The position numbers were made by a program, and so were the translations under genes. Below are positions 6,293 to 52,714 of a stretch of DNA of 64,000 nt, one piece after another (position 1 is the first letter of the stretch; each line of letters begins with the position of its first letter). This DNA is from an uncultured Bacteroidia bacterium (lineage in GTDB: Bacteria; Bacteroidota; Bacteroidia; Bacteroidales; UBA932), in assembly GCA_902778105.1 (NCBI GenBank), contig CACYWN010000006.1:62001-126000 (forward strand), given 5' to 3'. Below the pieces are notes generated by a model, which was not told the origin of the DNA, did not search any database, and saw only the letters and a list, made by a program, of their open reading frames with translations.

Positions 6293-6343
6293 AATAATAG
6301 AGGGATGAAGCTCCGAAAAAAGTCGCTCCATCCCTCTATTATT
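6293..6343. terminator. Loop-conserved hairpin 1 (frdB/fic boundary)
   Basis: A 19-bp stem (6293-6311 with 6325-6343, one mismatch) closes a 13-base loop reading TCCGAAAAAAGTC on plus and GACTTTTTTCGGA on minus. It sits between the 3' ends of frdB and fic and is flanked by A- and T-rich bases, so a bidirectional terminator is likely. The loop recurs in three other hairpins at 8270, 35346 and 52660. Confidence 0.75.
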
Positions 6344-6346
6344 TTT

Positions 6347-6435
6347 CCTGACTTAATCAATGCGTCACCCAAATCACCTGCGCAATATGCCTTACAGTTA
6401 TACCTGAAGCCGATTTTTAAAGAGATGCCGAAAAA
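6347..6435. repeat. 89-bp direct repeat, left copy (D1), truncated at its right end
   Basis: This stretch is repeated at 8166-8254 with a single difference (base 6361). Both copies begin CCTGACTTAATCA. The left copy lacks the inverted terminal sequence that closes the right copy and continues into unrelated AT-rich DNA. Together the copies bracket the fic gene. About 105 AT-rich bases (6436-6540) separate it from the fic stop; I see no gene there. Confidence 0.9.
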
Positions 6436-6540
6436 AAACCAAACCCGGTAGCTTGAATTACTTCAGGGGCTATCGGGAATCAACATTACAAAATTACGAA
6501 TAATAGTCAAATTAGTAAAAATACGCAATCCCTTTATTTA

Positions 6541-8043
6541 TCATACTATGCCAGCGAGGAGAGATGCAAAATCGCTTATGTCACCTTGGACACTGGCACG
6601 TTCAAGCGCAGACATATATTTGTCTCGTATATCTTTTTGAATGATAGTCCATCGATACCCTCCGGAGGCCAGCATTACGTTCATCATAAATCTTCCCATT
6701 CGTCCGTTTCCGTCCATATACGGGTGTATGAAAGTGAAGATGAAATGACCAAGCACTGCCCTCACCCACGCATCTTCTTCACTTTTCAGCAGGTCGAAAA
6801 GTACCGGCATCGCATCCCTGACGGCTTCGGGATTGAGAGGCGTATGCATTGAATTGCGAATATAGACCTGGCCAGACCTATACCCTACGATATCTCCAGC
6901 TTTGATTATTCCTGCCATCACAGACGGCGCGAACATCTCCTGGTACCATACGCGATGGTCTTTCTCTACAACCTCACCGGCATTCTTGCCATCGAGGATT
7001 GCCAGCAGGCTTTTCTTGACTTCCTGAAATGCCTGCCAATATCCGCGTGCCGCAAGGGCGGCCTTGTCCTCTTTGTCAGACGCATTCTCGTCCGGTTTCC
7101 AATTGCCGCTGCGGACTTTTTCAATCAGCTCTTCAGAAACCTTATAGCCCTCAATGGACAAAGAATGATATGCGTCCAGCTTATATCTATCCTCGACATC
7201 CTTCATATAGGCTTCGATGTCGATTCCCGCAGGCACGGAAGGTTTTACGGCAAGCACCGTATCGCGCATACTTTTCCACATCAGGCGAATACGCGTGGCG
7301 TATGGAGACAGGTCTCTGACAAACTCATACTTGTCGGTAAATGGATCTTCTTCACGAATAACATATCCGAAACGATCCATTGTAGACTTTATTTCATCAG
7401 CGATGGGAAGCATCTGCACATTCCTAAATGCGCCTATCAATCTCCCGGCGCGTGATGAACGGCCCTTGTCGAGGAGATAAGGAAGTACTTCCGATGAATC
7501 CCTTATCGCAGCAAGAGCTGTTCTGGCAGTAATGCTGCTGCGTTGGAAGAGAATCGGCGACGACATCACTAAGGCTTCGGGGATGCTGTAAACATTCAAA
7601 CCATATTGGCTTTCCTTGATAACATTAGTAGCGCAATCCGCTTTCAGAAAAAAGATGCTGCATCCGAAAGGAAGGATCACACTTGTGTTGTTGCATTTCG
7701 GCGAGCGTATAATCAATTGGGGAAGGACGGTCCAATTGCCCGTCTGAACATCTAATGACGCTTCAGCTGGCAGACACCATTCTTCTCCAAGTTTCTCCCG
7801 TACATACTCGGAAATGAACCTCCAGTATGAAATATACCAGGCCGTAGTATCGCCGGAAACAGCTGCCGGATCTGACTGAATATACCATCCCCCGACGACT
7901 TTCATCAGAAAGCCGTTTTCAACAAGACGTTCCTGGTGGGTCCTGCTGATTTCTGAAGACCTGATTATAGGACTGTTCTTCGACTCTTGTAACTGTCTCA
8001 GGACGTCAAGAGACTGTGCAAGTTTTTCTGAAGGTATTGCCAT
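6541..8043 (-). CDS. Fic-domain protein with N-terminal winged-helix-like region
   Basis: Fic enzymes usually transfer AMP (or related groups) to a hydroxyl of a target protein. The 500-residue product has the catalytic motif HPYMDGNGRMGR at residues 440-451 and an upstream SLSIEG (294-299), which fits the [S/T]xxxE[G/N] inhibitory-helix motif of self-inhibited class II Fic proteins. The first 60 residues resemble an AbiEi/winged-helix module (IIRSSEISRTHQERLVENGFLMKVVGGWYI), as in many accessory Fic genes. No separate antitoxin is visible. Codons and intergenic DNA look clearly AT-richer than in the neighbours, and direct repeats bracket the gene, both suggesting transfer. It has its own consensus promoter. 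A toxin or defence role is possible but not shown by sequence. Confidence 0.9.
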   Translation of the reverse strand: MAIPSEKLAQSLDVLRQLQESKNSPIIRSSEISRTHQERLVENGFLMKVVGGWYIQSDPAAVSGDTTAWYISYWRFISEYVREKLGEEWCLPAEASLDVQTGNWTVLPQLIIRSPKCNNTSVILPFGCSIFFLKADCATNVIKESQYGLNVYSIPEALVMSSPILFQRSSITARTALAAIRDSSEVLPYLLDKGRSSRAGRLIGAFRNVQMLPIADEIKSTMDRFGYVIREEDPFTDKYEFVRDLSPYATRIRLMWKSMRDTVLAVKPSVPAGIDIEAYMKDVEDRYKLDAYHSLSIEGYKVSEELIEKVRSGNWKPDENASDKEDKAALAARGYWQAFQEVKKSLLAILDGKNAGEVVEKDHRVWYQEMFAPSVMAGIIKAGDIVGYRSGQVYIRNSMHTPLNPEAVRDAMPVLFDLLKSEEDAWVRAVLGHFIFTFIHPYMDGNGRMGRFMMNVMLASGGYRWTIIQKDIRDKYMSALERASVQGDISDFASLLAGIV

Positions 8044-8075
8044 ATCTTTGTAATGTTACACGTTAATTCTTGTTG

Positions 8076-8106
8076 CAAAGATACACTTTAATTTTTGCCG
8101 CGCAAA
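8076..8106 (-). promoter_or_regulatory. Consensus Bacteroidota promoter of fic
   Basis: On the minus strand TTTG (8106-8103), exactly 19 bases, then TATCTTTG (8083-8076). This matches TTTG-N19-TAnnTTTG perfectly. It lies 32 bases before the fic ATG. Confidence 0.75.
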
Positions 8107-8165
8107 CACAATGGAATTTTTGCTGCAAATATATGTGTCGAAATGATGGAAGAATTATTAATTTT

Positions 8166-8268
8166 CCTGACTTAATCAAAGCGTCACCCAAATCACCTGC
8201 GCAATATGCCTTACAGTTATACCTGAAGCCGATTTTTAAAGAGATGCCGAAAAAGTGATAAAGTCAGG
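8166..8268. repeat. 103-bp MITE-like element (D2) with 13-bp inverted ends
   Basis: The element starts CCTGACTTAATCA and ends TGATAAAGTCAGG; the ends are inverted repeats with one mismatch. Bases 8166-8254 match the left copy D1. On plus it can be read as a short open segment ending LKPIFKEMPKK-stop, but it has no start of its own and I do not call a gene. It could be a small non-autonomous mobile element or the scar of the event that brought in fic. The rest of the fic to lipoprotein gap (8044-8378) holds the fic promoter and hairpin 2. Confidence 0.7.
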
Positions 8269-8269
8269 A

Positions 8270-8321
8270 AATAATAGAGGGATGAAGCTCCGAAAAAAAG
8301 TCGCTCCATCCCTCTATTATT
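8270..8321. terminator. Loop-conserved hairpin 2 (after the BACON/FISUMP gene)
   Basis: A 19-bp stem (8270-8288 with 8303-8321) nearly identical to hairpin 1, with a 14-base loop TCCGAAAAAAAGTC on plus (GACTTTTTTTCGGA on minus). It lies 57 bases beyond the 3' end of the minus-strand lipoprotein gene and is followed by T-rich DNA on plus. Likely a terminator. Confidence 0.75.
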
Positions 8322-8378
8322 TTTTATATAAAGACTATATGATTCTTTTGGATGTAAGTCAAATGGATTATAGATGGA

Positions 8379-10214
8379 TTATTCCTTGATGCAGCGGATG
8401 GCGTAGGCGTCGGCCCTGGAACCATTGGAAACTGGAGATGCGGAGAAAGACCATGCTCCGGTATATTCCTTGATACCGAAAGCCAGGGCGGCTCCCCGGT
8501 AAGTGTCGTTCTTGTCGTTGTCCAGGCTGGGTGCATTGGTCCAGTAATTTCCCCATAATCCAGCCATACTGCCCATAAACATGGCATATTGGCCGTTGTA
8601 CCGGGTTGTGGCGGGAAAATAGGAAGCCGTTCCCGAAGGACGGTCCAGCATCAGATACCATCCATTCTGGAAATCCAGCAGGTTGATCCATCCGTCGCCG
8701 TTCAAATCCTGTGCCGCGAATTCCGCTTCGCCGCTCAGGTCGTACCAGTGCATTTCACCTTCCGTTTCACCGCTTGCCCACGTAAATCCCCCGGACGAAG
8801 TGATATGACAGAAAGTCTGGGGGTCAGGAACCCGCCAGCCCACGGGACAGGGATCGTAGAAGGTCTTTGTACCCGTATGGACGTAGGTTCCCTCTTCCCG
8901 GACGGTTCCTTCGGGATTGCCCCAGAGCGCGGTGTTGCTTTCGGCGGGACGCAGCCAGTCGGGACTGGTGCTGAACTGGGCATTGTTGCTGATGCAGACC
9001 GTCGGATGCGAGATGGAGTAGGCCAGGGTATTGTTTTCCGTATCGTACATGCTGGTGGAACCGATACTGACCGGATTTCCATCCATATCATAAACCTCCA
9101 GATTCTTCGTATAGGCAGTTCCCTCATTGAGGATCGGAGATCCCGGAAGCGGGTCTTTCCTGCCCCATTGGTACAGGAGACCGTAAGAGGACACATCATT
9201 CGGGTTTTCCAACAGGGCTCCGAGATTGAGGTTCATCGCCTTCACGCCCGATTCAACGGGAAGTTCAATGATATCTTCCTCCGGTTTCCAGATATGCCAG
9301 CTCCAGATGATGTCCCCGGAAGCGTTGGTCGCGGCGATGAGGGCGTTGCCTCTACCCTGGGTGGTTTCAAAACGGATATTATCCCCTTCCAGGGAGACAG
9401 AGGAAATGAGTCCTTTCCTGGTCTGCCAGACCAGTTTCGCTCCGGCCGGGGAAAGGGCGGCGGGTTCTTTGAGCCCCTCGCATGCGATGCCGTTTCCACG
9501 GACGGTGGCCTTGAACTCAAATACCCCGTTATGGGTGACCAGGTAGGAATTGGAAGTTCCCTTTTCACTGAGGTTTTCCAATTTATGCGTAATGTCGGTT
9601 CCTTTTTGGATAATGCTTACACTCGCCGTCATCTCATAGACTTTTCGGCTCGGGGCATAAATGGTAATGCGGGCTTCCCGGTCCACGTCCTTCGTGTTTT
9701 CCTCGGCGGAAAGGGTGAGGATGTTGCCAGACGCGGAGGCTTCCAGCCAGTTTCCTTCCAGTTCATATTCCCACGTGGGCATATTCGTCTGGATTGTGAT
9801 GGAATAATCCTGCTTTTCTGAGGTGAGCGTCAGTTCTTCGCCGCAATCCAGCGACAGGGTGGGAACGAAAATGGAACCGGACTGGGACACCGTGACCGTT
9901 GCGGAGGCTTGGGGAGAGCCGGACGCCGGTGCAAAGATGCGGACCTTTGCACTCCGGGGAACGGTTTCTTCATTCTTGGCCGCCGTTAGGGTCAGACTGT
10001 TCTTCCCCTTGCTGCCCGAAAGCCAGGAGGCGCTTCCCATGTCAAACCCCCAGTCATCCTGATTGGTGGAGAAGGAGATGGAAACCGTTCCACCCCCGGC
10101 GGGAATGGAATGCGTGTCTGATCCTTCCAGGGTCAGGGAAGGTTCCGGAGCCGGAGCGGTGCAGGATGCGACAAGCAGGAAAAGCAGAAAACATGAAATA
10201 GAAGGATGTTTCAT
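8379..10214 (-). CDS. Lipoprotein with two BACON-like domains and a C-terminal FISUMP domain
   Basis: The 611-residue product begins MKHPSISCFLLFLLVASC, a signal peptide with lipobox Cys18, so it is probably surface-exposed or periplasmic and membrane-anchored. Two roughly 90-residue BACON-like Ig modules follow (segments such as SIPAGGGTVSISFSTNQDDW and the second copy near DYSITIQTNMPTWEYELEGNW). The C-terminal third is a Fibrobacter succinogenes major paralogous (FISUMP) domain, with YDPCPVGWRVPDPQTF and a terminal AYAIRCIKE. It is the last gene of a four-gene minus-strand unit, 7 bases after the PorV-like gene. BACON domains are often linked to carbohydrate or mucin binding; the ligand is not evident. 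I start at 10214 so that the lipoprotein signal comes first. Confidence 0.85.
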   Translation of the reverse strand: MKHPSISCFLLFLLVASCTAPAPEPSLTLEGSDTHSIPAGGGTVSISFSTNQDDWGFDMGSASWLSGSKGKNSLTLTAAKNEETVPRSAKVRIFAPASGSPQASATVTVSQSGSIFVPTLSLDCGEELTLTSEKQDYSITIQTNMPTWEYELEGNWLEASASGNILTLSAEENTKDVDREARITIYAPSRKVYEMTASVSIIQKGTDITHKLENLSEKGTSNSYLVTHNGVFEFKATVRGNGIACEGLKEPAALSPAGAKLVWQTRKGLISSVSLEGDNIRFETTQGRGNALIAATNASGDIIWSWHIWKPEEDIIELPVESGVKAMNLNLGALLENPNDVSSYGLLYQWGRKDPLPGSPILNEGTAYTKNLEVYDMDGNPVSIGSTSMYDTENNTLAYSISHPTVCISNNAQFSTSPDWLRPAESNTALWGNPEGTVREEGTYVHTGTKTFYDPCPVGWRVPDPQTFCHITSSGGFTWASGETEGEMHWYDLSGEAEFAAQDLNGDGWINLLDFQNGWYLMLDRPSGTASYFPATTRYNGQYAMFMGSMAGLWGNYWTNAPSLDNDKNDTYRGAALAFGIKEYTGAWSFSASPVSNGSRADAYAIRCIKE

Positions 10215-10221
10215 AACCTCG

Positions 10222-11127
10222 TCAAATAACGTAACTGATCGTAATGAAAACCGTATTTTGGTGATTATCCCCAAGGAAAGCCCAACCGGCATCCAGTTGA
10301 AGCCCCTTGATTCTTCCTCCAAGTCCAAGTGTTGCGAAAGAGGCTGTTCCCTGTGTGCGGGAACCCAGATGATATCCAGCCCGGACTCCGACGGAATCCT
10401 TCCACCAGTAGTCTGCCGCCACACCGGCCATCAAGGTTCCGGAAACCAGCCAATCCACCTGGGTCAGCAGACGGAGGCCCTTGACGGCCTCATAGGACAT
10501 ACCCGCCTTAATCATCGTGGGTTGTGTATAAGAGTTTCCTGATTCCGAATACTTGACCGGAGTACCGATATGGGCGAGGACCAGGCCAGCCTGGAACGCA
10601 TCCTTGCGGAAGGTGGCGGAAATATCGGCGCTGAACACCGTTGCTTTTGCATCGACGGCAAGGGAAGAAGAAACCATTTTGGCAACGAGCCCGACGGATA
10701 ATCCCGGTATGATCCGGTAGGCTCCGCCTATGCCCAGGATGGTTTCCGAGGGAGAGAAACGCTCGACAATCTGGTTGGCTACCCCATTATCGTCATACAG
10801 TTCATACGCAGGGCTCCGGAATGTTTTTCCCAACAAGCCGAGGGACAACCTGTCCTTTTTCCAACCGAAAGAGGCAGAAAGGATCTTGCTGCCTGAAACG
10901 GATGGGGTCCAAAGACCGTATGTGATTCCCGAGAGGATTCTTTTATCGGAGAAAGCAAGGGCTGACGCATTGTTTTCCCAGGCGAATGCCGTCGCTTCCG
11001 ATGCAGCGGATATACCCGCCCGGCCGAAAGCTTCCGCATCGGGAACAACCTGCAGGGAAGGCAGGACTTGCCCGTGAAGTATCGTGCAGGTCATCAAGCC
11101 TGCAAAAAGGAAAACATACTTTTTCAT
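10222..11127 (-). CDS. PorV/PorQ-family outer-membrane barrel protein
   Basis: The 301-residue product has a signal peptide (MKKYVFLFAGLMTCTILHGQ) and then VVPDAEAFGRAGISAASEATAFAWENNASAL, the hallmark N-terminus of the PorV/PorQ (FadL-like) family, followed by alternating amphipathic strands to the C-terminus. PorV shuttles T9SS cargo from the translocon to the attachment complex. The start codon overlaps the stop of the upstream S8 protease gene, whose product carries a T9SS sorting domain, which suggests a shuttle or partner specific to that cargo. It is shorter than canonical PorV, so I treat it as a paralogue. Confidence 0.8.
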   Translation of the reverse strand: MKKYVFLFAGLMTCTILHGQVLPSLQVVPDAEAFGRAGISAASEATAFAWENNASALAFSDKRILSGITYGLWTPSVSGSKILSASFGWKKDRLSLGLLGKTFRSPAYELYDDNGVANQIVERFSPSETILGIGGAYRIIPGLSVGLVAKMVSSSLAVDAKATVFSADISATFRKDAFQAGLVLAHIGTPVKYSESGNSYTQPTMIKAGMSYEAVKGLRLLTQVDWLVSGTLMAGVAADYWWKDSVGVRAGYHLGSRTQGTASFATLGLGGRIKGLQLDAGWAFLGDNHQNTVFITISYVI

Positions 11128-14446: not shown

Positions 14447-14482
14447 AGTCTTTTAAACAGGCGTTTGTTCCTGCAAGTGTAA

Positions 14483-14518
14483 TAAAAAACACCCGCAAAA
14501 ATCATGCGGGTGTCTTTC
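14483..14518 (-). terminator. Intrinsic terminator after the left SusCD operon
   Basis: ACACCCGC (14489-14496) pairs with GCGGGTGT (14506-14513). On the minus strand the stem is followed by TTTTTTATT, a good U-tract. It ends the minus-strand transcript of the broken susC locus and separates it from the T9SS unit. Confidence 0.8.
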
Positions 14519-14533
14519 ATAGAGCGATAGGGA

Positions 14534-15457: not shown

Positions 15458-15472
15458 AATGCGCATCCTTTA

Positions 15473-16864: not shown

Positions 16865-16885
16865 AATAGTCTTCTCCTTTTCAGT

Positions 16886-32905: not shown

Positions 32906-33325
32906 ATGGTCTCTTATTTCACCGAAGATACGAAATTTGCTTTCAAGGAGAAACGCCTGACGAGCCGCTGGCTTAAGCTCGTCGCGGAGAGCGAAATCCG
33001 CCGTCTCGGAGACATCGCCATCATTTTCTGTTCGGACAATTATATATTGGACGTGAACATGAAATATCTCCAGCATGATTATTTCACGGATATCATCACT
33101 TTCGACTACTGTGAGGGCGACCGCCTCAGCGGAGACCTTTTCATCAGCGTCGATTCGGTCCGGGAAAATGCCGAGCATTATGGAACCGCATTCGCCGATG
33201 AACTGAACCGGGTGATTGTCCATGGGGTCCTGCACTTGATCGGTTACGATGACCATACGAAGGAGGATATCGCCCAGATGCGGGCCAAGGAGAACTACTA
33301 CCTTTCGCTTCGGGAGCTGGTATGA
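32906..33325 (+). CDS. ybeY: Endoribonuclease YbeY (16S rRNA maturation)
   Basis: YbeY is a zinc-dependent endoribonuclease of 16S rRNA 3' maturation and ribosome quality control. The 139-residue product starts [18 protein letters not shown] and carries the metal motif [12 protein letters not shown] (H-x3-H-x6-H). ATG 32906 is chosen because it follows a -7 element by 15 bases and gives family length; the frame is open far upstream on the antisense of hflX but that is not coding. Its stop overlaps the mnmG start (ATGA), so the two are translationally coupled. Confidence 0.95.
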
Positions 33326-35214
33326 CGGGCCGTTACGACATCATCGTCATCGGCGGAGGGCATGCGGGATGTGAAGCGGCGATGGCCGCGGCCACGCTGG
33401 GTTCTTCTGTCCTCCTTATCACCCCCGACCTGAACGGTCTTGCCAAGATGTCCTGCAACCCGGCCGTCGGCGGTATCGCCAAGGGGCAGATCGTCCGGGA
33501 GATCGATGCGCTCGGCGGCTGGTCCGGCATCGTGACGGATGCGGCTACGCTCCAGTTCCGGATGCTCAACCGCTCCAAGGGGCCCGCCATGTGGAGTCCG
33601 CGTGCGCAGTGCGACAAACTCGCGTTTTCGCTGAAGTGGCGTGAGGTTCTCTTAAGTTCCTCTAAATTAAATATTTACGTCGATTTTGTTAAAAATCTTC
33701 TCTTTGAGAATGGCGTTTTGACGGGCGTCCGTACGATTACCGGGGCAGAATTCAAATCTCGCGCGGTTATTCTGACGGCTGGAACCTTCCTGAACGGCAG
33801 GATGTTCATCGGACAGCATGCCTTCGAAGGCGGACGCATCGGCGAGCTTGCGGCCTACCATGTCTCCGACCAGCTTGCTTCGCTGGGAATTCCGACGGCC
33901 CGGATGAAGACCGGTACTCCCCCGCGGATTGACGTCCGTTCGCTGGACCTCTCCAAACTCCCGGTTCAGGTCGGCGACCCTTCTCCGGAGCGCTTCTCTT
34001 TCCTGGACCGCCCTTCCGCGATTCAGCACGCTGTCATTCCGAGCGCAGCGAAGGAATCTCTTCCTCTTCCGCAGATGGAGTGCTACATTCTCCACACGAA
34101 CGAGCGCGTTCACGACATCCTGCGTTCCGGCTTCGACCGTTCTCCCCTGTTTACCGGCATGATCCATGGTCGGGGTCCGAGGTATTGCCCGAGCATCGAG
34201 GATAAGCTTCGCACGTTTGCCGATAAGGATTCCCACCAGCTTTTCCTTGAGCCGGAGGGCCGCAACAATCCGGAGTACTATCTGCAGGGTTTCTCCTCCT
34301 CCCTTCCCTTGGATGTTCAGCTGGAGGCGCTGCATGCCATTCCCGGGTTGGAGGATGCCGTTGTCTTCAAGCCGGCCTATGCGGTAGAGTACGATTATTT
34401 CGATCCGCAGTACCTGCACTATTCCCTGGAGTCCCGGGTTGTCGAAGGTCTGTTCCTGGCCGGCCAGGTCAACGGAACGACGGGATATGAAGAAGCGGCT
34501 GCACAAGGTCTCATGGCCGGAATCAATGCCCATCGCAAACTGGTTGACGATGCCCCGTTCATTCTTCGCCGTGACCAGGCATACATCGGTGTCTTGATTG
34601 ATGACCTGATCAACAAGGGGGTGGATGAGCCCTACCGGATGTTTACCTCCCGTGCGGAATACCGGATCCTGCTCCGGCAGGACAATGCCGATTTCCGTTT
34701 GACGGAGCTGTCCCACTCGCTGGGGTTGGCCTCCGAGGAACGCTATGCGGCCGTGTGCCGGAAGAAAGAGGCGGTCTCTAACCTGGATTCTATCTGTGCT
34801 TCTAAGAAAGTCCGTGCGGAGGTTGTCAATGACTATTTGATCTCTAGGGGCTCTGCTCCTCTTTCCGATTCCAAGCGCCTCTCCGAGCTGGTTGCGCGCC
34901 CGGAGCTGTCTCTAAAAGATTTGCTGAAAATTGTTCCATGTGGAACATTTTCTTCGGAGGTTGTGGAATCTGTCGAGATTGGAATTAAGTACGAGGGCTA
35001 TATCGAGCGTGAAAAGCAACAGGCCGAAAAGAACAATCGCCTGGAATATATCAAGATTCCTGCTGACTTTGATTTCGATCGCGTTCAGTCCCTCTCCATC
35101 GAATGTCGCCAGAAACTGAAGCGCTATAAGCCTGAAACGATTGCTCAAGCTTCCCGTATCTCCGGCATATCCCCCGCTGATATCTCCGTCCTTCTCGTCT
35201 ATTTCGGCCGCTAG
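33322..35214 (+). CDS. mnmG: tRNA uridine-5-carboxymethylaminomethyl modification enzyme MnmG
   Basis: MnmG (GidA), with MnmE, makes the cmnm5 modification at wobble U34 of several tRNAs, using FAD, folate and glycine. The 630-residue product has the FAD motif [56 protein letters not shown], and the C-terminal helical domain ([30 protein letters not shown]). Between PSAIQH and [10 protein letters not shown] it contains [15 protein letters not shown], encoded by a dispersed repeat (34032-34059) and absent from the enzyme as I know it. A parS-like 16-mer lies inside the gene at 34932. It overlaps ybeY by 4 bases. Confidence 0.95.
34032..34059 (+). repeat. Dispersed palindromic repeat (half element) inside mnmG
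   Basis: The sequence runs TGTCATTCCGAGCGCAGCG and on to GGAATCT, matching 37692-37719 with two differences. It is translated in frame as VIPSAAKES. The right arm (GAATGACA) present in the other copy is missing here. Confidence 0.75.
34932..34947. other. parS-like site 1 (inside mnmG)
   Basis: TGTTCCATGTGGAACA: one mismatch from the palindrome TGTTCCACGTGGAACA, itself a close variant of the bacterial ParB site TGTTTCACGTGAAACA. Confidence 0.7.
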
Positions 35215-35345: not shown

Positions 35346-35403
35346 GAGACAGACATAGGCCCCGGGCGACTTTTTTTCGGAGCCCGGGGCCTATATCTGT
35401 CTC
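35346..35403. terminator. Loop-conserved hairpin 3 (between mnmG and ruvA)
   Basis: A 22-bp stem (35346-35367 with 35382-35403, one mismatch) around the 14-base loop GACTTTTTTTCGGA. The stem sequence is unrelated to the hairpins at 6293, 8270 and 52660 but the loop is the same. It separates the convergent genes mnmG and ruvA, so bidirectional termination is likely. Confidence 0.8.
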
Positions 35404-35433: not shown

Positions 35434-36021
35434 TTACAGTTTCTTGAGGGCGGCTTTGATGAGGTCTTCGACCTTGGCATTCGGGTTGTCTTTGAGGATG
35501 GCCGGCATGACTTTGTTGATTGCCGCCTTGGAGAAGCCGAGCATGACGAGGGCAGTTGTGGCTTCATCGACGAGGGCGTTGGTGTCCGCCTTGAAAATGG
35601 TGCCGGTGTCCGAGCCGGCGCCTTTGACGATCTTGTCTTTCAGTTCCAGGACGAGGCGCTGGGCGCTTTTAAGCCCGATTCCCTTGACGCTTTTGATCCG
35701 GTTGATGTCTTCGGCCAGGATGGCGTTCCGGATTTCGTCGGAGGTAAGCGAGGAAAGCATCATCCGGGCGGAATTGACTCCGATACCTGAGACACCGATC
35801 AACAGGCGGAAGAGTTCCCTTTCGTCCTTGGTGGCGAAGCCGTAGAAGAGTTCTTCGTCTTCCCGGATATAGTGGTGGATATAGGCGACAGCCTGCGTCT
35901 TGAGCTGCAGGGCTTCGTAGGTCTGGAGGGAGATGAGGATGCTGTATCCGATGCCGCCGCATTCCAGGATGAGTTCCGTAGGCGTCAGTTCGATGATTTG
36001 TCCTTTAATATAATCTATCAT
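35434..36021 (-). CDS. ruvA: Holliday junction branch-migration protein RuvA
   Basis: RuvA tetramers bind Holliday junctions and load RuvB. The 195-residue product has the N-terminal OB fold (MIDYIKGQIIELTPTELILECGGIGY), tandem helix-hairpin-helix motifs (LLIGVSGIGVNSARMML and IKSVKGIGLKSAQRLVLEL) and the C-terminal RuvB-contact domain (EATTALVMLGFSKAAINKVMPAIL). Length is normal. It diverges from sufS across a 40-base spacer and is convergent with mnmG. ruvB and ruvC are not adjacent. Confidence 0.95.
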   Translation of the reverse strand: MIDYIKGQIIELTPTELILECGGIGYSILISLQTYEALQLKTQAVAYIHHYIREDEELFYGFATKDERELFRLLIGVSGIGVNSARMMLSSLTSDEIRNAILAEDINRIKSVKGIGLKSAQRLVLELKDKIVKGAGSDTGTIFKADTNALVDEATTALVMLGFSKAAINKVMPAILKDNPNAKVEDLIKAALKKL

Positions 36022-40207: not shown

Positions 40208-40245
40208 CGGAAGGGATGTGCCGCAGAAGCGGCCACTTGCACACG

Positions 40246-40291
40246 GAAACGCGGCAGACCCCACTTTGCGATTCGGGGTCTGCCGCGTTTC
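40246..40291. terminator. Long perfect hairpin after glyS
   Basis: A 17-bp perfect stem (40246-40262 with 40275-40291) around the 12-base loop ACTTTGCGATTC, followed by GTTTC. It is probably the glyS terminator. The loop starts ACTTT like the loop-conserved hairpins but otherwise differs. The rest of the gap to 40393 shows no gene. Confidence 0.75.
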
Positions 40292-40393
40292 GTTTCATGA
40301 AAGGCCGGAAGTGCGACAGAACGATTGTGGCACAATGGTTGCTTATGGAGGAAAATCATTATGGAACCTCTAATAAATTAATCATTTAGTGTC

Positions 40394-40885
40394 ATGAAAC
40401 GTTTTTTGTTACTGCCCCTGTTCTGTGCCTTATGTGGTGTCTGTTTGGCCCAGGAGAAATCGCCGAAAGGCGGATTTGAGTTTACGCTCTCCGAAAATCT
40501 CCTGCCGGGCACCCATCAGTTGATGAACTTTGCAGGAGTAAGCGTCGGCTATGCCTTCCCCTCCAACGACAAGATCCTGCTGGACTTTTCCTTTGGGAAC
40601 AACGTGACGGGAATGAATTACAAGTCGCAGGTTCTTTCCCTGATGTACGGACATGAAATGCGTCATTCGGAGCGATTCGGGACGCAGTTCGCGATCGGGC
40701 CGGGTTTACTTCGGGATTTCCAGCCGGACACGGGCTATGTATTCAAGCCGGTCGGGACCCTGGAGGTGCAGCACCGGATCTATTTTACGTCGCGCAGTTT
40801 CATCGGCCTTTCGGCGAAGGCCTTCGTTACGAAAAACTATCAGCAGGCTTCTTTCATCGGGGTCACCTGGGGCGGAAAGTTCTGA
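40394..40885 (+). CDS. Small secreted, probably outer-membrane beta-barrel protein, unknown function
   Basis: The 163-residue product has a signal peptide (MKRFLLLPLFCALCGVCLAQ) and then short alternating strands rich in aromatic and glycine residues (GVSVGYAFPSNDKILLDFSFG, FIGLSAKAFVTKNYQQASFIG) ending GVTWGGKF with a terminal Phe, as in small outer-membrane barrels. I recognise no named family. It stands alone between two terminators or repeats, inside a segment bounded by 16-bp direct repeats. Confidence 0.75.
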   Translation: MKRFLLLPLFCALCGVCLAQEKSPKGGFEFTLSENLLPGTHQLMNFAGVSVGYAFPSNDKILLDFSFGNNVTGMNYKSQVLSLMYGHEMRHSERFGTQFAIGPGLLRDFQPDTGYVFKPVGTLEVQHRIYFTSRSFIGLSAKAFVTKNYQQASFIGVTWGGKF

Positions 40886-40894
40886 CGCGCCGGT

Positions 40895-41935: not shown

Positions 41936-42053
41936 ATCATTCAAAGACAGGGAGTCATCCTGTCCTGCAAAAATAATAGAAAAGATTAAATGATTGAGCA
42001 ATGCAATCCCTAAAATTGAAAACAGCTTTCGGGGACGAACGGTCAATCTCTAT

Positions 42054-42194: not shown

Positions 42195-42249
42195 AAGGGG
42201 CGGCGGCCTTCCCCATTATTGGGGATTTCCTTTTTGCGTGGAAAAAAAC

Positions 42250-42257
42250 TATCTTTG
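42250..42257 (+). promoter_or_regulatory. -7 element (TATCTTTG) of the TonB receptor/S46 operon
   Basis: TATCTTTG matches TAnnTTTG and lies only 8 bases before the receptor ATG (42266). Transcription would then start within a few bases of the ATG, giving an almost leaderless message. Confidence 0.55.
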
Positions 42258-42265
42258 TAATCGGT

Positions 42266-46257: not shown

Positions 46258-47701
46258 CCTGCTCGTGCCGCTGGCCCTGCAGGGCCAGGACATCGGCCTC
46301 CTGCGGCTGGACCCGACCGCCTCCGGCAGCCGGGGGACGGCGCAGGTATACGGCGGCTACGAGGCCGGCGGCTACCATCCCGCTTTCGCCCCCTCTTCGC
46401 TCTGGAAGGCGGGCGCGTCGGCCCAGGGGACCCACCACGGGCACAGAACGTCCTTCACGGGATCTTTTTCCTTCGAGCAGATCGAGGGAAAGGACATGTT
46501 CACGTCCGTGTTCCTGGAGCCGGGCTTCTTTCCTGTCGACGTGGTGGAATTCACTCCCGGCGACAAGACGCGCCAGACCTATAGGCTGGGGGGCGGTTTC
46601 GCCACGGACCTGACGGACGAATTCTTTTTCGGCATCAAGGCCGACTATCTGAGCGCCAACTACGCCAAGCAGAAGGATATCCGGCATACGACCTACGGGA
46701 TGAATCTCCGGGTGGAGCCGACCCTGGCCTTCAGGATGTTCGACAACGCCGGCCTGTCCGCGTCCTACATTTTCCAGAAAAGGACGGAATCCATTGATGC
46801 CGAGCAGGTGGGTGCAGCGACGGACGCCTCCTACTACGCTTTCCTGGACAAGGGGATGCGCTACGGTACCTATCAGGTCTGGGACGGCGACGGCATCCAT
46901 CTGGACGAAGCGGGGGTGGGCGTCTTCCCGGTGAAGGAGTACCGGAACGGTTTCGCCTATTCCGTCGACACGCCGGATTTCGCCGGGGGTATGGAACTCC
47001 TCTGGAAACACGGGAAGGTGGGGGAAAAGGGCTATGACTGGTTCCGGTATCCGGGGCATTCCTGGTCGGTTTTCCTGGAGCGGCGGTGGCGGAGCGCTCA
47101 ATCCCTGCGCCTCGCCTTAACGCTGGAGGACGACCAGCTGGAAGAAGCCGTGCTGGACAAGGTCTCTTCCGGTGGCGTTACGGTCCCTGCGGTCTACGGG
47201 TACAATGCGGTGTCCGACCGGAACTGGTGCAGTCTGGACCTGACATGGGCCGCCCGTTTCCAAAAAGGGCACCTGCGGCGCCTGCAGGCCGTTTTGCACG
47301 GTGGCTTTTGGGCGGAGCACTCCTATCTGATGTATCCGTACGAGGACCGGACGGACCGTTATAACGGGTCGCTGACCCTGGTGTCCGCTTTCGTCTTCGG
47401 GCCCGTGGACCTGGGCCTCCGCGTCAACGGGGGGATGGGATCCTGGAAGGAACAGGGACTGCAGGGGGGGACGGACAGCGTCGTTTCCGCGCCCTTCCGG
47501 CTTCAGGCCGACTGGGACCGGAAGATGGAGTATTTCTCCACGTCCAAACTGGGCGCAGGGCTCACCCTGACCTATCATCTGAAGGCCGTCCGCGGTCTTT
47601 ACATCCAGGCCGAAGGCTCCTGGCTCCACGGCTTCGGCACCGTCCTCCTTCCGGGGGCCGACCGCTGGAGTTCGACAGCCAGGGTCGGTTACGGTTTTTG
47701 A
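46217..47701 (+). CDS. DUF6850-type outer-membrane beta-barrel protein, copy 1
   Basis: The 494-residue product starts MTSMRARYRACILSLLVPLALQGQDIG, a signal peptide; a second ATG at 46226 is equally plausible. The body is amphipathic strands with aromatic girdles, and it ends ADRWSSTARVGYGF with the terminal Phe of an outer-membrane barrel. It aligns throughout with the next gene (shared patterns such as YAFLDKGMRYGTYQ / FLDEGMRYGTYE and SFTGSFSFEQIEGKDMFTSVFLEPG / SLEQAAGKHLGSSLFLEPG), so the two are tandem duplicates. Function unknown. Overlap with the DUF4876 gene suggests coupling. Confidence 0.8.
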   Translation: MTSMRARYRACILSLLVPLALQGQDIGLLRLDPTASGSRGTAQVYGGYEAGGYHPAFAPSSLWKAGASAQGTHHGHRTSFTGSFSFEQIEGKDMFTSVFLEPGFFPVDVVEFTPGDKTRQTYRLGGGFATDLTDEFFFGIKADYLSANYAKQKDIRHTTYGMNLRVEPTLAFRMFDNAGLSASYIFQKRTESIDAEQVGAATDASYYAFLDKGMRYGTYQVWDGDGIHLDEAGVGVFPVKEYRNGFAYSVDTPDFAGGMELLWKHGKVGEKGYDWFRYPGHSWSVFLERRWRSAQSLRLALTLEDDQLEEAVLDKVSSGGVTVPAVYGYNAVSDRNWCSLDLTWAARFQKGHLRRLQAVLHGGFWAEHSYLMYPYEDRTDRYNGSLTLVSAFVFGPVDLGLRVNGGMGSWKEQGLQGGTDSVVSAPFRLQADWDRKMEYFSTSKLGAGLTLTYHLKAVRGLYIQAEGSWLHGFGTVLLPGADRWSSTARVGYGF

Positions 47702-47720
47702 GAAAAACGCCATATCGGAT

Positions 47721-49109
47721 ATGAATAAACTGTTCAGCATCGCAGGTATCACCCTCTGTCTGCTTTCTCCGGCCCTGGCGGAAGGCCAGGATATCGGACA
47801 GTTCCGGATCAGGAAGGCCGAACCCTCCGAGAGCGAAGTCGCCCTCTGGGGCGGGGTTGAGGACGGTCGTTTCAAGCCGACGCACGCGGCCCTGTTCCAA
47901 TGGAAGGCCGGAGCGGATGCCCGCCTGGTCCGACATGGACGCCATACCTCCTGGACCGGGTCCCTTTCCCTGGAACAGGCGGCGGGAAAACACCTGGGAT
48001 CCTCCCTGTTCCTGGAGCCGGGAGCTTTCCCGATGGACCTTTGGGACCAGACCACGGGGACGGCGTCCCGGCAGACCGGACGGATGGAGGTCGGCCTCCT
48101 GCGCGATGTCTCGGATTTGTGGGCCGCCGGTTTCAAGGCCTCTCTCAAAGCGGCGAACGAAGTGAAACAGGGGTCGTTCCGCCATTCGGCCTTCGGGGTG
48201 GACGCGCTGCTGGAACCGACCCTCACCTTCCTGTATGACGATGATGCCTGCTTTGTCTCCTCCTATCACGTCCGCCTGCGTACTGAGCGCGCCAAGGCCG
48301 GCCAGCCCGGAGACGGGGTTCCGCCCGTTTTCCTGGACGAGGGCATGCGCTACGGCACATATGAGCCCAGCCTGGGTATTTTCCCGGTTCTGGAGCTCTC
48401 CCACGGCTTTTTCGGGCGGTATTACAGCCCCGAACTGTCCGGCGGATTCGGGATTACCTGGAAGCGCGGGCGGGCCGGGGAACAGGATTACAGCCGCTTC
48501 CGGGCTCCGGGAAGCACACTGAAAGGTTTCTTCGAGGTGCCCCGCGAGGGGTTTGAGGTCGATCAGGTATACCGTATCGCCTATCAGCGCGACCGGGACC
48601 AGCTCCGGGAGGCCCGGGATGGCGGTTACACCGCCCTGTCGGACCGGGTAACGCGGAATGCGGCGTTCCGTTTCTCGCTTGTCCCCCACAAGGGAACGTT
48701 AAAGCGGGCCGGCGTTGACCTGGAGGGCAACCTGTGGCGGGAACGCGGCTTCGTGTCCGTCCAGGATGCCGTCCGGATGATCGGCGGAACGGCAACGCTC
48801 TTTGCGTCCGCGAGGTTCCTCTGGTTCGACCTGGACATCCGCCTGTCGGCGGGCGGCGGCCGGTGGCTGGACAGCGGCCGGTCGTACGGGGAAGACCCTG
48901 TTCCCCGCCTGGCGGAGGAGTGGAGAAAGGACATGGATTACCGCCTGCTCCCCCGGATCGGAATGGGCGGAACGATTACTTATCACCCTTATTTCCTGGA
49001 GGGCTTTTCCTTCCAGTTCGACACCGACTGGCTCCGGGCCTTCAAGAACATCCACCTGGGCGGCAGGAACCGGAACGTCGCCACCCTCAGGGTCGCATAT
49101 CATTTTTAA
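47721..49109 (+). CDS. DUF6850-type outer-membrane beta-barrel protein, copy 2
   Basis: The 462-residue product has a signal peptide (MNKLFSIAGITLCLLSPALAEGQDIG) and the same strand pattern as copy 1, ending RNVATLRVAYHF. The copies are diverged, so the duplication is old, and each keeps the EGQDIG-type mature N-terminus. It starts 19 bases after copy 1. Like its neighbour it probably forms an outer-membrane barrel linked to the receptor's function. Confidence 0.8.
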   Translation: MNKLFSIAGITLCLLSPALAEGQDIGQFRIRKAEPSESEVALWGGVEDGRFKPTHAALFQWKAGADARLVRHGRHTSWTGSLSLEQAAGKHLGSSLFLEPGAFPMDLWDQTTGTASRQTGRMEVGLLRDVSDLWAAGFKASLKAANEVKQGSFRHSAFGVDALLEPTLTFLYDDDACFVSSYHVRLRTERAKAGQPGDGVPPVFLDEGMRYGTYEPSLGIFPVLELSHGFFGRYYSPELSGGFGITWKRGRAGEQDYSRFRAPGSTLKGFFEVPREGFEVDQVYRIAYQRDRDQLREARDGGYTALSDRVTRNAAFRFSLVPHKGTLKRAGVDLEGNLWRERGFVSVQDAVRMIGGTATLFASARFLWFDLDIRLSAGGGRWLDSGRSYGEDPVPRLAEEWRKDMDYRLLPRIGMGGTITYHPYFLEGFSFQFDTDWLRAFKNIHLGGRNRNVATLRVAYHF

Positions 49110-49130
49110 CAGACATAACCCATCAGTCCC

Positions 49131-50714
49131 ATGAAGAAAGCCTTGATTATCGCGGGTGCGGCCGTCCTGGCCCTTGTCGCCTGCAACAAGAATCCCGAGA
49201 CCGACCGGACGCCGGTCGATTTCTCCCAGTACAAAGTCCGCGTGGAACCGGTGATTACGCGCGTGACCGAGACGAATTTCGAAAACGGCGACGCCATCGG
49301 CGTGTCCATCGTCCGCAAGGGCGGCGACTTTGCCGTCAACACGCCGTTCACCTACGACGGCACCGCCTTCGCCGGCGGCCTTAATTGGTATGAGGACGGC
49401 GAGGAGGCCTGCACCCTCAAGGCTTATTATCCGTACCAGGAAGGAGAAGCCCTCCCGACGAGGTTCACCGTCCAGCAGGACCAGACCCAGGGAACGGCCG
49501 CATCCGATTTCGTCTCGGCCGTCAAGGAAAACGTCCTTCCGAGCGCCAATGCCGTTTCGGTGGTGTTCAAGCACCAGCTGAGCCGCCTGGTCGCCACGGT
49601 GAAGAACAACGCCGGCGCCGACATCGAAAGCATTGTGTTCGAGGAGTTTGTCCCGGTTGCCGACATCGCCGCCGACCTGACGGCGAAGGTGGCGGACGGC
49701 GCCAAATGGCAGCCCCTGAAGCCTTTCTTCAAGGATGGCACGTACTATCTCATCGTCCCGGCCCAGACCGTAAAACCCGTCGTGAAAGTGACCGTGGGCG
49801 GCAAGGAGCTTTCCCAGAAACTCGCCGAGGCGAGCCTGGAGCCTGGCAAGCAGTACAGCCTTTCCATCGTCGTGAACAAGGAGGAAATCAAGGTCGTCCT
49901 TGCCGGTGAGATTGAAAACTGGAATGACGGCGGCGAACTGGACGGGGACTTCCGGGAGAACCTGGAAGAGGGGTATTTCACCTATGCCGGTGTCAAGTAC
50001 AACGTGGTCAAGATGAAGGACGGCAAGTGGTGGATGGCCCAGAACCTGGCTTATCTGCCGGAAGGCTGCACGCCCGCCACGGATCTCGGTGCCGTCACCG
50101 CCGGCGTCTTTGCTCCCCTGAAGGTCAAGGCGGACCAGTCTGGCCTGGAATTCACGACCGATGAGGCCGTCGTTGCCGCCAACGGCTACCTGTACCAGGC
50201 CGAAGTCGCCCTGGGCCTGAAGGTCGGCGACCTCCGGACCGTGGCGGAGGCCGAGGCGCTCGAGGGCGCCCAGGGCATCTGCCCGACGGGCTGGCACGTC
50301 CCTACCGCCGACGATATCACCGGGCTTGTGGGCAAGGCCGTCTCTCCGATTCCTACCAATGCCGAAGCACCGTACTACAACGGGGTCAACGGTTCCGTCG
50401 CACTCCTGAACGCGGATGGCTTCAACATGGCTCCTGTCGGTGCCGTTTCCATCCAGGACAACACCAAGACCGCCGGCACCTTCATGGGCTGGAACTCCAA
50501 ATATCCCGACAAGATCACTTCCGGGATGTTCTGCGGCTCCACTTATGGCGGCGTCACCTACAACACCTCCGGTGACGAGACGTCGGGCGTCAAGAACCTC
50601 CAGTTCTTCGGCCTGATGCCCATGACCAACAAGGATGCCGAAGCCGATTTTACCTGCAACGGAACCAAGGTGAGCTATCGTATCGCCGGTCCGGTCCGCT
50701 GCGTACGCAACTAA
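49131..50714 (+). CDS. Fimbrillin-like lipoprotein with C-terminal FISUMP domain
   Basis: The 527-residue product begins MKKALIIAGAAVLALVACNKNPE, a lipoprotein signal. Residues about 25-270 look like a fimbrillin/Mfa-type domain (TRVTETNFENGDAIGVSIV, TLKAYYPYQEGE, SVVFKHQLSRLVATVKNN, LEPGKQYSLSIVVNKEEI). The rest is a FISUMP domain (VKMKDGKWWMAQNLAYLPEGC, GICPTGWHVPTADDI, SYRIAGPVRCVRN). Fimbrillin domains build surface pili or act as tip adhesins in Bacteroidales; no usher or minor-pilin genes are near, so an isolated surface lipoprotein is more likely. It is separated from the S46 peptidase gene by 3 bases. Confidence 0.85.
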   Translation: MKKALIIAGAAVLALVACNKNPETDRTPVDFSQYKVRVEPVITRVTETNFENGDAIGVSIVRKGGDFAVNTPFTYDGTAFAGGLNWYEDGEEACTLKAYYPYQEGEALPTRFTVQQDQTQGTAASDFVSAVKENVLPSANAVSVVFKHQLSRLVATVKNNAGADIESIVFEEFVPVADIAADLTAKVADGAKWQPLKPFFKDGTYYLIVPAQTVKPVVKVTVGGKELSQKLAEASLEPGKQYSLSIVVNKEEIKVVLAGEIENWNDGGELDGDFRENLEEGYFTYAGVKYNVVKMKDGKWWMAQNLAYLPEGCTPATDLGAVTAGVFAPLKVKADQSGLEFTTDEAVVAANGYLYQAEVALGLKVGDLRTVAEAEALEGAQGICPTGWHVPTADDITGLVGKAVSPIPTNAEAPYYNGVNGSVALLNADGFNMAPVGAVSIQDNTKTAGTFMGWNSKYPDKITSGMFCGSTYGGVTYNTSGDETSGVKNLQFFGLMPMTNKDAEADFTCNGTKVSYRIAGPVRCVRN

Positions 50715-50717
50715 GGG

Positions 50718-52646
50718 ATGAAGCGCTTTTCACTCATCGCCGCCCTGCTTCTGGTGAGCGGGACGGCAATGGCCGATGAAGGGATGTGGATGATCCACGC
50801 CCTCAACCAGGCCCTGGAAAAAAAGATGCAGGAGCGGGGGCTGCAGCTCTCCGCCGGGGAAATCTACAATGCCGACGCGCCGGGGGCCACGGTTTCCGAC
50901 GCCGTCGTGTCACTCGGCTTCTACTGCACGGCCAGCGTCATCTCGGATCAGGGACTCCTCATCACGAACCATCATTGCGCCTACAGCGACCTCTCGGACC
51001 TGTCCACGCCGGATAAGAACTATCTGGAGGACGGCTACTGGGCATTCTATCGCCAGGATGAGATTCCGCTCCGGGGAAAGGAAGTCTTCTTCCTCAAGCG
51101 CGTGCTGGACGTGACCGATGAAGTGGCTGCGCTGAAAGACTCGCTGCAGCGGGCCGGCGCCCCTTTCGGTTCGCGGCGCCTGTCTTCCCTGATGGAACGG
51201 AAATATGCCGCCCGGACGGGCCTGGAGGCCTCCCTGGATGCGATGTGGGCGGGCGAGAAGTATTATCTCTCGCTGTATCGGAAGTATACGGACATCCGCC
51301 TGGTGGGCGCTCCCCCGGTCTCCCTCGCCGCTTTCGGCGGTGACGAGGACAACTGGGAGTGGCCGCAGCACAAGGCCGATTTCGCCCTGTACCGCATTTA
51401 CGACCACGGGGAACCGCTTTCTTCTCCCTGGCACCTGAAGGTCTCCGAGGCCGGCTATCGGGAAGGAGATTATGCGATGGTCATCGGCTATCCCGGCCGC
51501 ACCGACCGCTACAGCAGTTCCTTCAAGGTCGATTACCTGGAGCGCGTGGAGCGGCCGGTGACGAACCGCCTCCGTGGTGCGCAGATGGAGATTGTCCGGA
51601 AATGGATGGACGTCGATCCGGACATCCGGAGGAAGTATTCCGACTGGTTCTTCTCCCTCTCCAACGTGCAGGAAATGCAGGAAGGGGAAGTCCAGTGTTT
51701 CAAGCGTTTCCACGTTGTGGACGAGAAGCGGGCCCAGGAAAAGGACCTGCCGCCGGACATCCTGAAGGGACTCGCCGACGAATATGCCGCCATCGAAGAG
51801 ATCGAGCGGGAGAAGGCCTATTATCGCGAGACGATTGTCCGCGGAATGCGCATCACGCCCACGATGCTCCGGATGTCCAACGCCAATACCGAAGAGGCCC
51901 GCGCGGAGCAATATCGACGGGGCCTGGCCGAGGTGGATCCGCGTGTGGAGAAGGACCTCATCGCCTACTCCCTGGAAGAGTATTTCGGCCATCTGCCGGC
52001 GGAGGTCATCGGCCATCGGCAGGATTCCCTGCGGAAGGCCTTTTCCGGCGATTACAGGGCCATGGCGGCGCATTTGTGGGACCATCCCCTGGAACTGATG
52101 GATTTCATCACGGAGGTAAAGATTACGGCCTTTAACACCCGCGAACAGCACACGGGCGACCTGACGGAGCTCACGCGCGCCTATACGCGTGCGCTTTATA
52201 AGGACCGCGCGGACAAAGGGATCGTCCAGTATCCCGACGCGAATTCCACGATGCGCATCACCTACGGGCGGGTTTCTTCCCTGGACCCCTGGGACGCCGT
52301 CCATACGTCCTGCTGGTCAACCCCCCGCGGCCTTTTCGAAAAATGGGACCCTGCGCAGCACGACTATGCGCTTCCGGCAGACTTCGTCGAAGCGGTGCAC
52401 GACTATGTGGGCCCGGTCAATTTCCTTACGGACAATGATATCACGGGCGGTAATTCCGGCTCCCCCGTCTTGAATGCACGGGGCGAACTCATCGGCCTGG
52501 CCTTCGACGGCAACAAGGAATCCCTTGCCTCCGACGCCTCCTATACCCCGGGATACAACAAGTGCGTCTGCGTGGATATCCGCTATGTGCTCTGGATTCT
52601 CCGGGATTACGTGGGATTGGAACGGATCCTGAAGGAGTTGGAATAA
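50718..52646 (+). CDS. S46-family dipeptidyl-peptidase (DPP7/DPP11-like)
   Basis: S46 enzymes remove N-terminal dipeptides in the periplasm of asaccharolytic Bacteroidota. The 642-residue product has a signal peptide (MKRFSLIAALLLVSGTAMA), the catalytic His86 in LLITNHHCAYSDL, FGGDEDNWEWPQHKADFALYR with the likely Asp, and Ser580 in ITGGNSGSPVLNARGELIGL. The segment LAFDGNKESL carries Gly where specificity differs between DPP7 (Gly) and DPP11 (Arg), favouring DPP7-like preference for hydrophobic residues; I am only moderately sure of that alignment. Last gene of the receptor operon, followed by a loop-conserved hairpin. Confidence 0.93.
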   Translation: MKRFSLIAALLLVSGTAMADEGMWMIHALNQALEKKMQERGLQLSAGEIYNADAPGATVSDAVVSLGFYCTASVISDQGLLITNHHCAYSDLSDLSTPDKNYLEDGYWAFYRQDEIPLRGKEVFFLKRVLDVTDEVAALKDSLQRAGAPFGSRRLSSLMERKYAARTGLEASLDAMWAGEKYYLSLYRKYTDIRLVGAPPVSLAAFGGDEDNWEWPQHKADFALYRIYDHGEPLSSPWHLKVSEAGYREGDYAMVIGYPGRTDRYSSSFKVDYLERVERPVTNRLRGAQMEIVRKWMDVDPDIRRKYSDWFFSLSNVQEMQEGEVQCFKRFHVVDEKRAQEKDLPPDILKGLADEYAAIEEIEREKAYYRETIVRGMRITPTMLRMSNANTEEARAEQYRRGLAEVDPRVEKDLIAYSLEEYFGHLPAEVIGHRQDSLRKAFSGDYRAMAAHLWDHPLELMDFITEVKITAFNTREQHTGDLTELTRAYTRALYKDRADKGIVQYPDANSTMRITYGRVSSLDPWDAVHTSCWSTPRGLFEKWDPAQHDYALPADFVEAVHDYVGPVNFLTDNDITGGNSGSPVLNARGELIGLAFDGNKESLASDASYTPGYNKCVCVDIRYVLWILRDYVGLERILKELE

Positions 52647-52659
52647 GCGGGAACAGGAG

Positions 52660-52714
52660 CAAAAGAAAGAGGGATGGCGCGACTTTTTTCGGAGCGCCAT
52701 CCCTCTTTCTTTTG
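52660..52714. terminator. Loop-conserved hairpin 4 (between S46 peptidase and secDF)
   Basis: A 21-bp perfect stem (52660-52680 with 52694-52714) around the 13-base loop GACTTTTTTCGGA. It lies between convergent genes and probably stops both. The stem shares only GAGGGATGG-like bases with hairpins 1 and 2; the loop is identical. Confidence 0.8.

Follow-up and report, generated by a model that had tools for sequence, protein, structure and literature searches.

E0, as we call it here, is a hairpin with a long stem that differs from copy to copy and a loop that hardly differs at all. It recurs at the 3' ends of genes in the genome of an uncultured Bacteroidia bacterium (assembly GCA_902778105.1, hereafter G000) and in a few related genomes. 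Four copies lie within a 64,000-nucleotide stretch of G000 (contig CACYWN010000006.1, positions 62,001 to 126,000), which we refer to as the window. We put the odds at roughly even (about 0.5) that E0 is a lineage-restricted, dispersed 3'-end hairpin with rewritten arms and a constrained loop, acting at the RNA level on 3' ends in both directions. Palindromes scattered through bacterial genomes are, as a rule, identified from their stems. In E0 the stem is variable and the loop is fixed, in families that can be traced between closely related species, and the comparison of such sites shows how DNA hairpins of this kind evolve, with loops kept or flipped and stems rewritten.

The Four Hairpins of the Window

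The initial annotation had described four long-stemmed hairpins sharing one loop, apart from a single T. All four are present, at 6293, 8270, 35346 and 52660, their loops read either GACTTTTTTCGGA or GACTTTTTTTCGGA, and the first two are indeed copies of each other.

6290..6346, minus strand: E0 copy 1; 22-bp stem; loop 6312-6324, GACTTTTTTCGGA on the minus strand; between the convergent sdhB-like gene 5528-6271 (plus) and Fic-domain gene 6541-8043 (minus); ortholog in the sister genome L194, with a flank match on one side only.
8266..8325, minus strand: E0 copy 2, duplicate of copy 1; loop 8289-8302 with 7 T; 3' of the BACON-domain gene 8379-10424 (minus) and upstream of the Fic gene, also on the minus strand.
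35346..35403, plus strand: E0 copy 3; loop 35368-35381 with 7 T; between the convergent mnmG 33322-35214 (plus) and ruvA-like gene 35434-36021 (minus); ortholog L191.
52660..52714, plus strand: E0 copy 4; 21-bp perfect stem; loop 52681-52693 with 6 T; between the convergent S46 peptidase gene 50718-52646 (plus) and secDF gene 52737-55694 (minus; SecD and SecF joined in one protein); ortholog L187, hairpin identical.

The placement at 3' ends holds as well, with three hairpins between convergent genes and the one at 8270 between two minus-strand genes. The loop pattern GACTTTT(N0-5)CGGA matches four times in the window, each time inside one of these hairpins; dinucleotide shuffles give an expectation of 0.21, and none of 100 shuffles reached four. 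The four stems score 17.4-21; the only other hairpin of the window that reaches a score of 17 is at 40246-40291. The latter had been noted for a partly similar loop; it is a member of a separate repeat family, of GCGGCAGACCCCACTTT type.

A Fixed Loop on a Variable, Paired Stem

Among 32 copies of E0 the loop is GACTTTTTTCGGA in 15, GACTTTTTTTCGGA in 15, and GACTTTTTTTCGGA with a single transition in two. The stems are 14-28 bp long (median 23) and have a core in common, AxAGGG plus a closing C-G pair. That closing pair is found in 32/32 copies. Further down the stem, a G-C pair at 9 bp is paired in 31 copies and one at 10 bp in all 32, and 13 bp from the loop an A-T pair occurs in 30/32, with one T-A. 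Because the stems share this core, the copies are, judged from their sequences, one dispersed family and not independent hairpins. The stems in the window other than the duplicates had been called unrelated, which is mistaken: besides these near-invariant core pairs, the hairpins at 52660 and 6293 have AGAGGGATGG in common.

Outside the core, the stem varies widely and stays paired. Two copies differ on average at a fraction of 0.0097 of their loop positions; for the inner stem this mean is 0.35, for the four-pair core 0.26 and for the outer stem 0.51. These figures cover 31 of the 32 rows, all but L021 (its stem length was set by hand and its row is shifted by one base in the stem alignment). 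Pairing holds in 95.3% of the 768 cells of the 32-copy alignment, with both-sided changes at 21 of 24 pairs; the pair 7 bp from the loop takes each of the four Watson-Crick forms in one copy or another. The covariation score is 0.720, compared with 0.196 when shuffled (0/500 reached the observed value) and at most 0.149 when slid. Folding as RNA yields a 2x2 GA/GA internal loop with a C-G pair closing over the U-run, in which the loop G and A would form sheared pairs, and the z-scores of three folded copies are -7.6 to -9.6.

G.U pairs are rare, occupying 14/640 inner-stem cells. Counted on the sense strand over the inner 20 bp, G.U stands to A.C as 9 to 1 in the ten copies of the tandem group (including L185 and L021) and as 5 to 4 in the other 22. 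A G.U excess in tandem copies is what selection on the sense RNA predicts, because G.U is then tolerated in one strand only.

Loop Constraint and Arm Rewriting at Orthologous Sites

Ten ortholog pairs were compared: eight between G000 and its sister species G077 (obtained by flank searches), one between G077 and G079, and one between G077 and G078. Their loops show one substitution in 133 aligned positions. At the flank rate, 13.4 would be expected when three of the 20 flank segments are dropped as too divergent to be trusted (Poisson P about 2e-5), and 15.5 when one is dropped (P about 3e-6). The 20-bp arms carry 48/400 differences, similar to the flank rate, and the length of the T-run differs in 5/10 pairs. 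This supports a loop more constrained than its surroundings. E0 sites also gain and lose the element. At eight compared G077 sites whose counterparts lack the hairpin, the G000 site is empty, holds a one-arm remnant, or has a different hairpin or repeat; four of these (L185, L193, L196, L197) have a good flank match on one side only.

In 4/10 pairs (L012/L192, L013/L180, L019/L186, L184/L181) the loop runs in opposite directions when the genes on either side are aligned, and arm differences amount to 33/160 in the inverted pairs against 15/240 in the others. At the mnmG-ruvA site (35346 in the window, L191 in the sister), both partners of five inner base pairs have been replaced, with no change in the loop and little in the outer stem. 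Template switching between inverted repeats homogenises their arms and inverts their spacers, according to two reports (PMC8604942, PMC8794818). In sequence comparison, orthologous E0 sites show both effects, arms homogenised with few G.U intermediates and inverted spacers. Template switching would fit, since G.U is low, compensated changes come in blocks and loops are inverted; the multi-base compensated changes, perfect arms and inversions of loop or spacer are all as in template-switch hairpins. The reported cases are from RNA (rRNA) genes and from coding genes of yeast, and the loop or spacer inverted there is mostly a few bases long, whereas here inversions are found in 4/10 E0 pairs and in 8/10 pairs of a larger family, E1 (see below), whose apices together span 13 to about 120 nt.

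The initial annotation took a fixed loop on a varying stem to imply selection on the loop. Loop constraint and compensated stem changes agree with this; part of the pattern may be explained by mutational template switching instead. Compensated changes in such stems are not in themselves proof of RNA selection. E0 makes it testable how often template switching in replication, and not selection on each pair, maintains long perfect hairpins, and what role the loops of 3'-end hairpins have in Bacteroidales.

Copy Number and Distribution

A covariance model built from 11 copies finds 14 E0 hairpins in G000 (2.66 Mb, 84% complete) at E <=1.5e-12. Exact GCGACTTTT..CGGAGC sites number 10 in this genome, and the reversed control has 0 matches. 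The sister species G077 (= RGIG3197 = G113), searched whole, has 16 hairpins, and the G078 and G079 assemblies, likewise searched whole, have one each. With 14 copies in this genome, E0 is also a dispersed repeat. A general repeat search of the sequence, at the settings used, did not list the E0 hairpins.

A scan of genome contigs with the loop pattern gave at least 113 stretches. Among 127 listed motif matches that were scored (loci L027 onward, with viral contigs and weak relatives included, and only ungapped pairing from the loop scored), 10 had stems of 18 or more and 111 had stems below 4. Among the matches listed, the 10 with long stems all lie in three Bacteroidales metagenome-assembled genomes (MAGs), RGIG3197 (8), RGIG4404 (1) and RGIG2804 (1); the RGIG MAGs sharing the hairpin are of ruminant origin. 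These relatives, together with genes of the window (BACON domain, S46 peptidase, SecD and SecF in one protein), mark the G000 organism as a Bacteroidales. A phage origin was discarded, as the 10 viral-contig matches include none of those with paired stems.

Within the genus, 11/400 genomes contain the short loop pattern and 4 of these 11 have the hairpin: G000, G113, G326 (= RGIG2804) and G339 (= RGIG4404). The matches of the other seven, read individually, have no paired arms. Lineage specificity, raised as a possibility from the window alone, is supported by this distribution, on which E0 appears to be a lineage-restricted family. The RGIG2804 copy is on a 6.8-kb contig that is 97-99% identical to G000 around the hairpin. 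Because two other RGIG2804 loci match G000 only in parts, at 68-82%, the contig may stem from a strain like G000 and have been assigned to this assembly by mistake.

Rfam gave 0 matches in the window and weak microRNA-type matches below the gathering scores at the L012 and L190 loci, and a known Rfam family was rejected for these sequences. In the open-access library searched for work on conserved-loop hairpins, on Bacteroidetes repetitive extragenic palindromes (REPs) and RAYT transposases, on Bacteroidales terminators and palindromes, and on template switching, we found no description of E0.

Position Relative to Genes

With genes called around the copies by a codon-usage gene model, at least one gene's 3' end is faced by 31/32 copies, and in 29/32 the gene that lies 5' of the hairpin, read along the loop strand, points at it. 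The neighbouring genes are convergent at 21 copies, tandem with the loop sense at eight and tandem with the loop antisense at one (L185); one copy is called divergent (L021), and one (L189) is undetermined, with no gene called on one side. For comparison, convergent arrangement is found in 7 of the 43 pairs of neighbouring genes across the window. At L021 the gene model overlooked a RAYT-like gene; minus that unit, the upstream gene would by eye point at the hairpin, and we kept the copy as divergent. T content in the 18 nt past the core is 8.5 on the sense and 8.3 on the antisense side, compared with a background of 4.1.

Larger Families of the Same Design

A scan for long arms with apices of up to 220 nt, over the 2.38 of 2.66 Mb of G000 that were read, gave 54 elements. 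Besides E0, these include families whose arms are particular to each copy and whose apex, about 59-160 nt long, is conserved:

E1, G000: L333:6886-7011, L282:15213-15332, L282:3475-3587, L211:12090-12221, L205:7535-7647 and others.
E2, G000: L263:14840, L336:11288, L336:12095, L336:13966.
E3, G000: L276:17251, L335:9427, L200:2276.

The E1 apex is 59-119 nt long and in most copies reads GTCGCTNCGCGACCCCTCCC..GGGCCCCTCCCTCTTAT..GCCGAGGGTGGC..; E2 and E3 have other conserved apices, of about 85-160 nt. Searching with the E1 core found 17 copies in G000, 17/17 with arms scoring 19-29, and E1 is present in 6/8 genus genomes searched. In an alignment of 15 of the 17 copies, the stem pairs mostly show several Watson-Crick types, with two G.U and eight A.C or C.A among 405 stem cells (9 of them gaps). 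The E1 apex is inverted relative to its flanks in the 8/10 ortholog pairs mentioned above, at six of eight G000 loci; this comparison concerns orientation only, as the E1 core is fixed by the search pattern. Rfam, run on three stretches with E1 or E2, returned signal recognition particle RNA, tRNAs and one weak microRNA-type match.

Members of different families can occupy the same site. Site L183 has E0 in G077 and E1 in G000, and in G003 the mnmG-ruvA site has, by eye, long arms around an E2-like apex. At this latter site 21 of 30 loci were read, G000 included, and in 6/20 relatives there is a long terminator-like hairpin with the tip GTTCC-ACGT-GGAAC (five) or GTTCC-ATGT-GGAAC (one).

Because E1 and the others have the same long-arm, conserved-apex design, E0 is on present comparisons the smallest of several families with copy-specific long arms, a conserved apex and flipping. 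A broader idea, which we offer tentatively, is that these families form one genus-wide class. What is inherited and recognised would be the apex, and the long arms would be disposable, rewritten by the same template switching that flips the apices. At the same gene ends, one apex would replace another (among them GACTTTTTTCGGA and those of the GCCGAGGGTGGC family), each read by its own cellular factor.

Function, Mechanism and Alternatives

As we picture it, an E0 copy would form a hairpin. Most copies lie between convergent genes, and a stop codon is usually a short distance before them, so that each of the two messages could finish with a strong hairpin and a T-rich tail. Position and composition make it likely that such a structure ends or protects transcripts from both sides, as a bidirectional terminator, a block to 3' exonucleases, or both. 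Template switching between the arms during replication, a process taken from published work, would keep the arms complementary and flip the loop. The loop, whose six or seven U are closed by C-GA-C ... G-GA-G, would be kept because something, perhaps a protein or an RNA, reads it or because its own fold matters.

Several points weigh against this reading. A TTTT run follows the core in 12/32 copies on the sense side and in 10/32 on the antisense side, so most copies are not textbook intrinsic terminators, and a loop of 13-14 nt is long for one. L197 directly follows a separate, ordinary-looking terminator, and L185, a tandem copy with its loop antisense, runs counter to the orientation rule. 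The identity of the loops can come partly from recent spread or from gene conversion between copies, and their orientation, read from MAG assemblies, could reflect population mixture. The G.U and orientation counts are small and not independent, as L017/L018, L016/L023 and L025/L195 are duplicates or orthologs. Finally, E1 has almost no G.U and rather more A.C or C.A, which suggests that the process acts on DNA, or that the RNA is made from the opposite strand.

A possible, if unlikely, alternative is that the apex is a site for a trans-acting protein or RNA, for example an RNA-binding protein controlling 3' ends, and that the stem merely presents it. A constrained loop on a free stem would be expected of such a site, and the loop is sense in 8/9 called tandem copies, but no partner is known. 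The loop is also flipped in 4/10 ortholog pairs, all between convergent genes; this is indecisive because either orientation is there sense to one of the genes.

We are rather doubtful that E0 copies are ordinary bidirectional intrinsic terminators descended from one dispersed copy, in which stem stability and tail matter and the loops are identical through recent spread or conversion. Like the intrinsic terminators of Bacillus cereus (PMC5381666) and bidirectional ones, E0 copies are intergenic 3'-end hairpins with compensated stems and T-rich tails, and they have the stable, G+C-rich hairpin at the 3' end that is typical of intrinsic terminators. The shared stem core marks the copies as related, and presence and absence at orthologous sites fits recent spread. 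However, ortholog loops are far more conserved than flanks and arms, though the arms have been rewritten at some of the same sites and the T-run has changed in half of the pairs. Many other long-stem hairpins in G000 have short loops with no common sequence, and E0 differs from intrinsic terminators in its long, fixed loop, its stem of 14-28 bp and the scarcity of TTTT. The B. cereus terminators also evolve by compensation, with G.U reported as the commonest intermediate (PMC5381666); in E0, by contrast, G.U is rare and five pairs have changed on both sides at one site.

It seems improbable that E0 is REP-like and owes its spread to a RAYT-like (Y1/HUH) transposase of this genome. Such genes abound: Pfam gives six Y1 matches in G000, five in G077, three in G079 and none in G078, and tblastn gives 17 RAYT-like places in the 2.38 Mb of G000, two of them probably one gene split at a stretch boundary. 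E0 resembles the GTAG- and CGTC-tagged palindromes described in PMC3733652 and PMC6006769 in being a short, dispersed, intergenic palindrome, often at 3' ends, in a RAYT-rich genome, and its copies come and go at sites. Neither tag, however, is found within 8 nt of either hairpin foot (GTAG 0/32, CGTC 0/32), and GTGG is at the foot in 2/32, where chance gives about 1.75 per tag. Compared with those palindromes, E0 mostly has a stem far longer than 5-13 bp, and no cognate RAYT gene adjoins it. Searched by tblastn with six such proteins over about 1.5 kb on each side where the contig allows, 1/32 E0 loci has a RAYT-like gene, with its own, different hairpins on both sides. Pfam did not recognise this gene, so diverged RAYT-like genes could be overlooked. 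In the hairpin families flanking RAYT genes here, the stem is kept and the loop varies, the reverse of E0. With no foot tag, no adjacent cognate gene and conservation reversed, the REP element of a RAYT was rejected. Several RAYT-like places in G000 carry hairpins of their own, and by eye the GCGGCAGACCCCACTTT-type hairpins flank a RAYT-like transposase gene (L213:9009-9821) on both sides.

Miniature inverted-repeat transposable elements (MITEs) and other non-autonomous elements are, like E0, short and dispersed, with inverted arms and with presence or absence at orthologous sites. MITE ends are conserved within a family; E0 arms differ between copies.

DNA uptake sequences in terminators, as in Neisseria and Pasteurellaceae, can be dismissed despite the conserved short motif in terminator-like hairpins, since G000 has only 14 copies, far below the numbers of uptake signals (generally at least 1,000 per genome), and such signals make terminator hairpins from closely spaced complementary pairs, not as the loop (PMC1852404).

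Neighbouring Loci and Similar Hairpins Elsewhere

The Fic-domain gene 6541-8043 sits between two copies of E0 and of an adjoining direct repeat (window 6290-8325). In the sister genome (L194), another neighbour adjoins the hairpin on the side where the window has the Fic gene, which suggests an insertion or duplication around the hairpin. Near the GCGGCAGACCCCACTTT-type hairpin of the window, TGGCACAATGGTTGC at about 40328-40342, upstream of an open reading frame at 40394, resembles a sigma-54 promoter.

The ruvA hairpins of relatives with a GTTCCACGTGGAAC tip, or one base off (L366-L369, L371, L372), have a variable outer stem, and in G000 a similar TTGTTCTACGTGGAACAA lies about 180-200 nt past the ruvA stop. 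The GTTCCACGTGGAAC tip resembles parS, the ParB site.

In Clostridium mobile MSJ-11 the same 17-mer (with the 14-mer pattern, 6 places) lies inside a different long hairpin family, with the conserved stem GAGCTAAG..:

L157, L161, L163, L165, L167, L169, Clostridium mobile MSJ-11: hairpins of GAGCTAAG..CTTAGCTC type, apex containing GACTTTTTTCGGA.

For 17 fixed bases and three gap lengths, searched on both strands of about 257 Gb, some 90 matches are estimated to arise by chance, compared with the at least 113 found, and we therefore treat this match as probably a coincidence. Plasmids searched with one of these hairpins gave no match.

An expanded apex, GACTTTGAAA..GCGAAGGCG..TTTTGTAGCAGGA or GACTTTGAAA..GCGAAGGCGAAG..TTTTGTAGCAGGA or nearly so, is found in G004, in G011 and, in five copies, in G197:

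L246, L247, L249, L254-L257 (G004, G197, G011): expanded-apex hairpins, the apex starting and ending like the short loop.

This apex may be a long relative of the E0 loop. By eye, the inner stem of these hairpins differs between copies, with pairing retained.

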